Assembly (NCBI GenBank): GCA_028690585.1
Contig: JAQVAZ010000004.1
Location: 1-55,777 of the forward strand
DNA: 55,777 nucleotides
Direction of reading: 5' to 3'
From: Candidatus Altimarinota bacterium
Lineage (GTDB): Bacteria > Patescibacteriota > Gracilibacteria > JAHISY01
In this document: piece by piece, positions 2,240 through 5,264 of the stretch
Layout of the letters: the number at the start of each line of letters is the position of its first letter
Numbering within the stretch: the first letter of the stretch is position 1
Notes under the pieces: model-generated
What the model was told of the DNA's origin: nothing
Seen by the model: the letters and a program-made list of their open reading frames with translations, nothing else
Database searches by the model: none
Translations under genes and position numbers: made by a program

Positions 2240-2666
2240 TGGTGGAGATGCCGGGGTTCGAACCCGGATACAAAGAGTCGGTGCAGGCCGTTTACAATCG
2301 TATTTAGCTTTGAGATTTTCGAGTGTGGAGATAGAAAGCGAAAGAAAAAAATCCAAACCTTAACCCTAAATTTCACAAACTCCGCGGGTGAAAAGTTTGC
2401 TAACTCATATTGTGAAGCGGATTTGAATCGCCATGAGTAGGTAATTCAAGCGCTACGGCGAGCCGAGGCTCAAGCCGATTTACGCAGCGTAAGCGTAATC
2501 AAAAACAGGTTTTGATTTTGCGATACTGCGGAGACTGCGCTGAGCGCGAGTCAAAAAAGAATCTGTTTTTGCAGATAGTTTTGCTGCTGGATATGACGAG
2601 AAACAGCATCTCGTGATTGCGGTGATTGCATCCGATAGGCCTCTCTGGCGAAACCAATACATCCCC
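2240..2666 (-). ncRNA. ssrA: tmRNA (transfer-messenger RNA)
   Basis: Read on the minus strand, the 5' end GGGGATGTATTGGTTTCG is typical of tmRNA. GGGGATG at 2666-2660 pairs with CATCTCC near the 3' end, followed by an encoded ACCA, and the T-arm is TCCGGGTTCGAACCCCGG. The tag frame ends DYAYAA-TAA (stop at 2482-2480). The resume codon is probably one of the GCA triplets at 2587 or 2584, giving a tag of 34-35 residues. tmRNA rescues ribosomes stalled on broken messages and marks the product for proteolysis. The long tag and the YAYAA end (more commonly YALAA) are noteworthy. The total of ~427 nt is slightly long. Confidence 0.95.
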
Positions 2667-2834: not shown

Positions 2835-4913
2835 ATGGATGCGTTTATCCAGCTTCTCCCTGCCAATGTAGTTATCCTCGCGATTGGCTCAGCAGTCTTT
2901 GCGTTACTCTACGCAACTTTCACGATTTTCCGTGTGATGCGTAAATCCGCTGGCGATAAGAAAATGCAGGAAATTGCTTCCTATATCCAAGAAGGCGCCG
3001 CGGCTTACCTCAATCGCCAATATTCCATCATCGCGATTTTCGCAGTTTTGATTTTCTTGGCTCTCGCTTTCTTCCTTCCAGTGAATGGTTGGTTGATGGC
3101 TGTCGGCTTCATGGCTGGCGCGATTCTTTCCGCTGCTGCTGGTTACATTGGTATGAGTGTGAGTGTCAGAGCAAATGTGCGCACTACTGAAGCTGCTAAG
3201 AAAGGCTTGAAAGAAGCGCTGAATGTTGCTTTCTCGGGAGGTAGTATCACTGGTTTCTTCGTAGCAGGTTTGGCGCTGGGTGGTGTAGCGACTTTCTATT
3301 GGTATCTCACAGCAATTGTTGGTTTACCGATTGGTGAAGCCACTCAAACTCTCGTTGGTTTCGGATTCGGAGCTTCTCTCATCTCTCTCTTCGCGAGAGT
3401 GGGTGGTGGTATCTTCACCAAGGCTGCGGATGTTGGCGCGGATTTAGTGGGTAAAGTAGAAGCAGGAATTCCAGAAGATGATCCACGCAATCCTGCTACG
3501 ATTGCTGATAACGTAGGTGACAATGTAGGAGATTGCGCTGGTATGGGTGCCGATCTTTTCGAAACTTACGCGGTGACTACTATCGCTGCGATGATTCTCG
3601 CTGCTATTTCTCTCGGAGGAGAAGGCGGTCTTACAGAAAATCATGTCTTACTTCCACTCGCAGTTGGTGCTGCTTCGATCTTCGCAACTGTGATTGGCAC
3701 TTTCTTCGTGAGATTGGGCAAGAAAGAAAAGATTATGCGCGCGCTATATCAAGGCACTTTTGTGACTGCGATTCTCGCCGCGGTGGCTTTTTACTTCCTC
3801 AACTCTTGGTTGACTGCAGATATCAATCTTTTCTACGCTGGCTTGGTTGGTTACGGCATCACCGTTTTCATGATGGCAATTACTGAGTATTACACTTCCA
3901 CTGCTTTCTCTCCTGTGAGAGGAATCGCAAAAGCTTCCCAAACTGGCGCTGGCACAAATCTTATCGAAGGTCTCGCAGTAGGATTGAAATCTACTCTTTA
4001 TCCAACTCTCACAATCGTTGCGGGAATCATCGCTGCTTATTACTTCGGTGGTTTATACGGAATCGCAATCGCAGCAGTAACGATGCTTTCTACTACTGGC
4101 ATGATTATTGCGATGGATAGTTACGGTCCAATCACTGACAACGCTGGTGGTATCGCAGAGATGACTGGCCAACCAGAAAAAGTGCGTAAAAATACTGATG
4201 CGCTTGATGCAGTGGGCAACACAACCAAAGCAGTTACCAAAGGTTACGCAGTGGGTAGCGCGGCGCTGGGAGCTTTGGTGCTTTTCCAAGCTTACGGAGA
4301 TACACTTTTCGCGAATAATCCTACTGGTGTTTTTGACTTCTCTCTCAGCAATCCAGCAGTGTTAGTTGGTTTATTCATCGGAGCCTTACTCCCATTTGTT
4401 TTCTCTGCTTACTGTATGCAAGCGGTGGGCCGCGCGGGTTACGCAGTGGTAAATGAAGTGCGCCGCCAATTCCGTGAAATCAAAGGCATCATGCAAGGCA
4501 CCGCGAAACCAGAATATGCCAAGTGTGTAGACATCGTTACCAAAGCTGCGCTGAAAGAAATGATTATGCCAGCAGCGATTGCGGTTATTTCTCCAATCCT
4601 CGTTGGTTTCATTCTCGGGCCAGTAGCCCTCGCAGGTTTACTCATCGGTGTGATTGTCTCTGGATTACTCGTGGCACTCATGATGGCGAATGGTGGTGGC
4701 GCTTGGGATAATGCGAAGAAATATATTGAAGATGGTAACTACGGAGGCAAGGGTAGCGAAGCGCATAAAGCGGCAGTGGTGGGTGATACGGTAGGAGACC
4801 CTTACAAAGATACAGCTGGCCCAGCCATCAACGCGCTGATCAAAGTTATCAATACCATCGCTTTGATTCTCGCTTCTGTTTTGGCTACTACTGGAGGCTG
4901 GATTCACTTCTAA
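2835..4913 (+). CDS. hppA: Membrane-bound proton-translocating pyrophosphatase
   Basis: 692 aa starting at ATG 2835; an upstream in-frame GTG would add unrelated residues before the first membrane helix. This multi-helix pump hydrolyses cytoplasmic pyrophosphate and exports ions. The active-site string [19 protein letters not shown] and the following [15 protein letters not shown] are intact, and the C-terminal motif [17 protein letters not shown] is present. The sequence [10 protein letters not shown] has Lys at the position known to separate potassium-independent (Lys) from potassium-dependent (Ala) enzymes, so a potassium-independent proton pump is inferred. For an organism with a small metabolism it would recover energy from biosynthetic pyrophosphate. 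It is transcribed alone between a promoter and a terminator. Confidence 0.97.
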
Positions 4914-5071: not shown

Positions 5072-5101
5072 TTGAAACTGCCAACGGCGTTTTGTTATAA
5101 T
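5072..5101 (+). promoter_or_regulatory. Promoter of the metZ leader
   Basis: -35 TTGAAA (5072-5077), an 18-nt spacer and extended -10 TGTTATAAT (5093-5101). The start point would be near 5108, giving a ~155-nt leader before metZ. That is exceptionally long for this genome. Confidence 0.8.
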
Positions 5102-5123
5102 TCCTGCAGTGAAATACCTCTCC

Positions 5124-5236
5124 ACCAACTCCCGAATGATGCAAATGATGATGCTTCTTTCCCGAGGGTTGGTATTTGGTAGGTAAAAAATAATTCACTC
5201 ACCAAAGATACATCACCCTCGGAAGAGGGTGTTTTT
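5124..5236 (+). promoter_or_regulatory. Candidate translation-coupled attenuator of metZ
   Basis: Four segments form mutually exclusive pairs. Segment 1 ACCAACTCCCG (5124-5134) pairs with segment 2 CGAGGGTTGGT (5163-5173), with one mismatch. Segment 2 CGAGGGT (5163-5169) also pairs perfectly with segment 3 ACCCTCG (5215-5221). Segment 3 CACCCTC (5214-5220) pairs with segment 4 GAGGGTG (5225-5231) around GGAA, followed by TTTTT (5232-5236), an intrinsic terminator. A Met-rich leader ORF starts 1 nt after segment 1 and ends after segment 2. Ribosomes stalled at the Met codons would cover segment 1, free segment 2 to trap segment 3 and prevent termination. This is the trp-type logic applied to methionine. 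Confidence 0.75.
5136..5186 (+). CDS. Methionine-rich leader peptide of metZ
   Basis: A 16-codon ORF, MMQMMMLLSRGLVFGR, with Met at five of its first six codons and a TAA at 5184-5186. It has no Shine-Dalgarno, like most genes here. It is too short to be a functional protein, and its position between attenuator segments 1 and 2 argues that it senses charged Met-tRNA. Chance clustering of ATG triplets is the alternative, but the pairing scheme around it fits the sensing role exactly. Confidence 0.75.
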   Translation: MMQMMMLLSRGLVFGR

Positions 5237-5264
5237 AATTTTAATTTTCCTAACTTTTACTTCT

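Follow-up and report, generated by a model that had tools for sequence, protein, structure and literature searches.

The leader in front of a metZ-like gene in the window (the whole 55,777-nucleotide stretch analysed here) is very probably a ribosome-mediated transcription attenuator of the trp/his type, one that would sense charged Met-tRNA and control the metZ-like gene, and it belongs to a family of leaders spread across the class. The leader and its gene consist of the following features.

5072-5101, + strand: promoter, TTGAAA-18-TATAAT, 11 of 12 consensus bases, with TG before the -10 (-35 TTGAAA at 5072-5077, spacer 18 nt, -10 TATAAT at 5096-5101)
5109-5186, + strand: leader ORF on the leaderless GTG start reading, VKYLSTNSRMMQMMMLLSRGLVFGR, 25 aa, stop TAA at 5184-5186
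5115-5134, + strand: segment 1, partner of segment 2; 1:2 hairpin of -19.9 kcal/mol
5136-5153, + strand: control codons Met Met Gln Met Met Met, from the sequence; a stall here gives the antiterminator in simulation
5162-5183, + strand: segment 2 (CCGAGGGUUGG...), partner of 1 or 3, from folding, shuffles and class-wide 2:3 covariation
5197-5222, + strand: segment 3, which pairs in the antiterminator and whose 3' portion doubles as the 5' arm of the terminator
5214-5236, + strand: intrinsic terminator 3:4, stem 5214-5231, loop GGAA, U tract 5232-5236
5250-5254, + strand: CTAAC motif, 10 nt upstream of the metZ ATG, one of the motifs enriched near start codons in the genome
5265-6461, + strand: Cys/Met-metabolism PLP enzyme, MetZ-like (O-succinylhomoserine sulfhydrylase type), PF01053, below curated cut-offs

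The first-pass annotation had read a consensus promoter here, followed by a Met-rich leader ORF with five Met codons, and both are present in the sequence: the promoter departs from consensus at a single base, and the ORF from 5136 to 5186, which encodes MMQMMMLLSRGLVFGR before its stop, carries all five Met codons within 5136-5153. Folding of the leader yields three mutually exclusive pairings, 1:2, 2:3 and 3:4. The terminator, CACCCTC-GGAA-GAGGGTG followed by T5, folds with -12.8 kcal/mol and ends 28 nt short of the metZ-like gene start. At the core of the antiterminator, CCGAGGGU (5162-5169) pairs with ACCCUCGG (5215-5222) in eight perfect pairs, one more than the seven counted earlier, and an interrupted pairing of approximately 5172-5183 with 5197-5211 extends it to a total of -23.7 kcal/mol.

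The exclusive pairings and the T5 terminator, as originally described, are all in the sequence, and they exceed chance. Of 3000 dinucleotide-preserving shuffles of 5109-5213, with the terminator kept fixed, 0.07% reached the observed 2:3 energy, 0.17% reached that of 1:2, and none (0/3000) reached both. Ranked by 1:2 plus 2:3 energy, the metZ leader comes first among the 24 terminator-like sites of the window, where the pattern ATGATGNNNATGATGATG, at no more than two mismatches, occurs once against 0.17 expected.

Ribosome stalling was simulated by folding the RNA with the ribosome footprint masked (-11/+9, -14/+12 or -16/+14). Placing the A site on codons 2-5 (M, Q, M, M) of the short ORF brought the antiterminator to 0.87 and the terminator to approximately 0. 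Once the ribosome had reached the last Met codon, the terminator won with the two larger footprints, at 0.57-0.85 for a ribosome at the stop codon; with -11/+9 the boundary shifted, and at the stop codon the antiterminator won. The trp-style logic proposed at the outset, with Met codons after segment 1 and the stop after segment 2, is therefore reproduced in a footprint-dependent manner. Ribosome-free RNA up to 5231 preferred the terminator (0.87), whereas full-length RNA without a ribosome preferred 2:3 at equilibrium, so that the switching logic needs folding during transcription, as in trp.

MetZ orthologs proved to be no source of homologous leaders. Neither the 65 genome loci with MetZ homologs (33-49% identity) nor the six class members with MetZ (38-43% identity) had a Met-rich leader plus terminator in the upstream DNA covered, and no close MetZ (E<=1e-75) was found among 380 genomes of the phylum. 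The window metZ-like gene seems to be an isolated acquisition. The check proposed earlier, for conserved Met codons and pairing in relatives, thus found no leaders to compare among metZ orthologs; homologous leaders before other methionine genes do bear it out. At Neisseriaceae-type metZ genes (L005, L006, L007, L010, L012, L021, L023, L025, L030) we observed a long near-perfect palindrome, ACAAGGGTTGGC...GCCAACCCTTGT, approximately 75-83 nt before the matched start.

The family itself came to light in a seed search for the pattern ATGATGNNNATGATGATG in 353 genomes of the class. About 90 loci were read, and many matches to the Met-run pattern were dropped as low-complexity or lacking a terminator; a second Met run in the genome under study (C22:16702) lies inside a 280-aa frame and so is no leader. 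There remained 22 short Met-rich ORFs with an intrinsic terminator 19-30 nt after the stop, the window leader included. A covariance model (R1) built from 17 leaders of other class genomes, with the window left out, finds the window leader at 5103-5238 (48.7 bits, E=2.6e-11), with no other match at E<=0.01 in that genome, and it makes full-length matches at E<1e-6 in 55 of the 353 class genomes, spanning nine families. As the seeds were picked by their Met codons, the conservation of these codons among the leaders stems in part from the selection itself; the terminator, the 2:3 pairing, the start frame and the downstream genes are independent of the seed pattern. Two loci carry tandem Met-leader attenuators before one gene (L212 at 2745-2884 and 2901-3030; L214 at 256-390 and 474-612).

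Structure and simulation statistics were drawn from 60 high-scoring homologs. The 3:4 terminator stem, which was part of the aligning model, is paired in 95.9% of cells over these members, against a shuffled mean of 84.3%, with two-sided changes at all seven pairs. The 2:3 antiterminator, which was not part of that model, is paired in 83.0% of cells, a figure lowered by the window and a few others being offset by some columns in the alignment; two-sided changes occur at six of its eight pairs, and slid partners reach 36-54%. In duplex energy, 2:3 falls below the 5% shuffle level in 80% of members. The position of the 1:2 pairing varies among members; 43% of them have a 1:2 energy below the 5% level, and 95% have one below the 25% level. 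A correct switch in simulation, with a stall at Met giving the antiterminator and a ribosome at the stop giving the terminator, was obtained for 38 of 60 members (63%) compared to 2% of shuffles; about a third of these members fail to switch in the simulation.

A GTG at 5109 shares the reading frame of the Met ORF and lies 7 nt downstream of TATAAT, at the expected transcript start; its distance of 27 nt to the Met run recurs in L116, L224 and L243. In the family, whose promoters have a -35 of TTGACA and a spacer of mostly 16 nt, 37 of 60 members have an ATG or GTG in the Met frame at 4-9 nt downstream of a strong -10/-35 pair, against 0 and 1 for the other reading frames; this bias is independent of the seed pattern. 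Given this bias and the spacing, we place the start at GTG 5109 rather than at ATG 5136, where the first-pass annotation had put it: the codon stands in the Met frame just where the transcript should begin, and the peptide most likely starts there without a 5' leader, as the 25-residue VKYLSTNSRMMQMMMLLSRGLVFGR.

Shine-Dalgarno-like motifs precede none of the 31 window genes, and the 16S 3' end retains the anti-SD (CAUCUCCUUU). Two other motifs are enriched near start codons, TANAAT at 5-10 nt before the start (9 of 45 genes, 1.0 expected) and YTAA[CA] at 7-12 nt (19 of 45, 2.7 expected), and both are also found in genomes of the same family (L106-L108).

We propose that transcription starts at approximately 5108-5109 and that a ribosome would load at the 5' end on GTG 5109, leaderless, to cross segment 1 and reach the five Met codons. 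With enough Met-tRNA, it would go on to the stop behind segment 2 and block this segment, 3:4 would form and transcription would terminate at approximately 5236. Were Met-tRNA scarce, a stall on the Met codons would cover segment 1, so that 2:3 could pair, no terminator would arise and metZ would be transcribed. Under conditions of no translation, 1:2 and then 3:4 would be expected to form, again leading to termination. The element is one of a family that, across the class, stands in front of genes for making or regenerating methionine. Anatomy, pairings, homology, covariation and the identity of the genes behind the leaders come from sequence and computation, and the transcript start, leaderless initiation, stalling and the response to methionine are inferred.

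The element, first noted as controlling metZ, is not specific to that gene: homologous leaders precede other genes too, most of them starting some 16-36 nt after the model match ends. By sequence, 57 downstream proteins clustered as 12 + 5 + 3 + 1 + 20 + 16. The twelve form a homocysteine S-methyltransferase group, seven of them checked directly against PF02574 (L143 is one such leader), and the five are homoserine O-acyltransferases (metA/HTS, PF04204), including those behind L122 and L123 (L123 E=2.6e-130). The three are SAM hydroxide adenosyltransferases (SAM hydrolase), two checked and the third assigned by grouping; this enzyme converts SAM to adenosine and methionine. The one is the window metZ-like enzyme, the 20 are an orphan family, and the 16 are others, including some methyltransferases. 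Methyltransferases aside, the characterised steps under the element make or regenerate methionine. Among the homologs, these characterised genes serve the amino acid that would be sensed; for the window metZ, the rest of the pathway was not found.

The orphan family (L116, L124, L128, L129, L133, L148, L154, L169, L208, L211, L215, L226-L228, L230, L234, L239, L241, L246, L249) comprises proteins about 300-370 aa long in which N-A-R, F, QxRS and DxxxN positions are invariant. Those members checked gave no Pfam match, and two gave no NCBIfam match. There is a weak PDB profile match to the SAM hydrolase-like structure 2zbu (E=0.015 and 0.0055), and a profile comparison with clear SAM hydrolases returned 1% probability. 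Its position under the attenuators points this family towards methionine supply. It is tempting to speculate, with somewhat less than even confidence, that leaderless Met-leader attenuators run a class-wide Met regulon; the orphan family would then be a new enzyme that generates methionine, perhaps a SAM hydrolase that has diverged far, and metZ, itself an orphan, would make methionine by an unusual route.

The product of the window gene falls in PF01053 (Cys_Met_Meta_PP fold family, E=4.6e-138), and its best NCBIfam models are O-succinylhomoserine sulfhydrylases, yet it misses the curated MetZ equivalog cut-offs (NF006003, 487 bits against 522; TIGR01325, 477 against 510). Its host genome (1.05 Mb, 98.7% complete) carries the gene in single copy and has a homoserine dehydrogenase. 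The CPR placement comes from the first-pass annotation, and a genome of this size fits it. No match was found in it to MetE (PF01717), MetH-type S-methyltransferase (PF02574), MetA (PF04204) or MetX (TIGR01392), the MetX search being one in which no control genome rose above the cut-off, yet 9 of 14 controls were detected. With none of these four found, the name metZ is only a family label, and it is the switch that suggests a part in Met supply. The earlier metZ call accordingly holds as to the Cys/Met PLP family and MetZ-type best models and falls short at the equivalog cut-offs and the rest of the pathway.

These same gaps leave room for a reading in which the switch is as we describe but the enzyme is catabolic or acts in transsulfuration, as a methionine or cystathionine gamma-lyase type, with the Met codons standing in for a shortage of sulfur amino acids in general. 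The best PDB relatives of the enzyme are methionine gamma-lyases, and in two class members (L002, L071) a MetZ homolog directly follows what appears by eye to be a cystathionine beta-synthase or cysteine synthase gene, an order that suggests a transsulfuration role of the homolog there. We nevertheless consider this reading rather unlikely, as the best NCBIfam models point to the sulfhydrylase, the enzyme has DGQGR where the aligned lyase has NGHGD, and the other characterised metabolic genes under the element all make or regenerate methionine or are methyltransferases.

Less probable still is that the family attenuator operates here with its decisive initiation at ATG 5136, on a 27-nt 5' UTR, thereby sensing a mixture of initiator and elongator Met-tRNA. 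ATG 5136 is a strong codon, and in some other members an ATG of the Met cluster itself lies within leaderless distance of the -10; on the other side stand the placement of GTG 5109, with its counterparts in L116, L224 and L243, and the lack of an SD-like motif ahead of ATG 5136. Methionine genes are commonly under SAM riboswitches or T-boxes, so one might look for a known element (SAM riboswitch, SAH riboswitch, T-box) with an incidental leader ORF. This we regard as highly improbable: against Rfam, no family reached the gathering score at the leader, hits with E up to 10 were unrelated families only, no curated covariance model of a SAM riboswitch or T-box matched, and what the homologs keep is the leader ORF, the stop position and the terminator, not an aptamer. 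It would be even more surprising if the terminator merely ended an upstream transcript, with a Met-rich ORF arising by chance and metZ having its own start. Although the leader is single in its genome and no metZ ortholog carries it, the shuffle p is below 1/3000, homologs of equal layout precede Met genes, and no -10-like sequence lies at leaderless distance ahead of the metZ ATG.

Attenuation by a ribosome translating a leader peptide has long been known. Like the trp/his-type attenuators (trpL, hisL, thrL and ilv leaders), the attenuator we describe has a short leader ORF with a run of control codons, 1:2/2:3/3:4 pairings, an intrinsic terminator and a stop codon placed so that a ribosome that has finished blocks segment 2. 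It differs in that Met would be sensed, by codons directly behind segment 1, in the probable leaderless initiation in an SD-poor genome, and in serving unrelated single genes instead of one operon. In mycobacteria, polycysteine leaderless short ORFs attenuate downstream genes by ribosome speed (Canestrari et al. 2020, cited in PMC9031893). Those leaders likewise are leaderless short ORFs in which a single sulfur amino acid is repeated, with Cys in place of Met. A survey of Actinobacteria described mycobacterial cys leaders without a conserved terminator hairpin, whereas the terminator here is conserved and covarying; it also found methionine operons of that group to lack a conserved RNA structure upstream, and named the S-box as methionine RNA control elsewhere (PMC1262725). 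The met leader of S. aureus is a T-box (PMC3771891), and metZ of Sinorhizobium has a SAM-II riboswitch predicted to act by transcription termination (PMC9373788). These two are also RNA leaders of methionine genes, but they bind tRNA or SAM directly, without a Met-codon leader peptide, and the window leader is without an Rfam match.

No Met-codon attenuator was found described in the open-access literature searched, which is weak evidence since subscription journals were mostly outside its scope; a Met-sensing, leaderless, class-wide attenuator family before methionine-making genes is apparently undescribed so far. The family counts dozens of homologs, has covarying stems and stands before methionine genes, and it lies in a small-genome class in which little is known of gene regulation. 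It may offer a codon-based readout of what these cells find limiting, and a natural test case for leaderless GUG initiation in genomes without Shine-Dalgarno motifs.

Two further observations concern other parts of the window. The tmRNA gene at 2240-2666 (- strand) has an unusually long predicted tag peptide, AKTDSFLTRAQRSLRSIAKSKPVFDYAYAA. At 1-1440, the first kilobase has a GC content of 65% against 39-48% over most of the window, and xanthine/CO-dehydrogenase-like reading frames stop abruptly; this stretch looks like a chimeric contig end.
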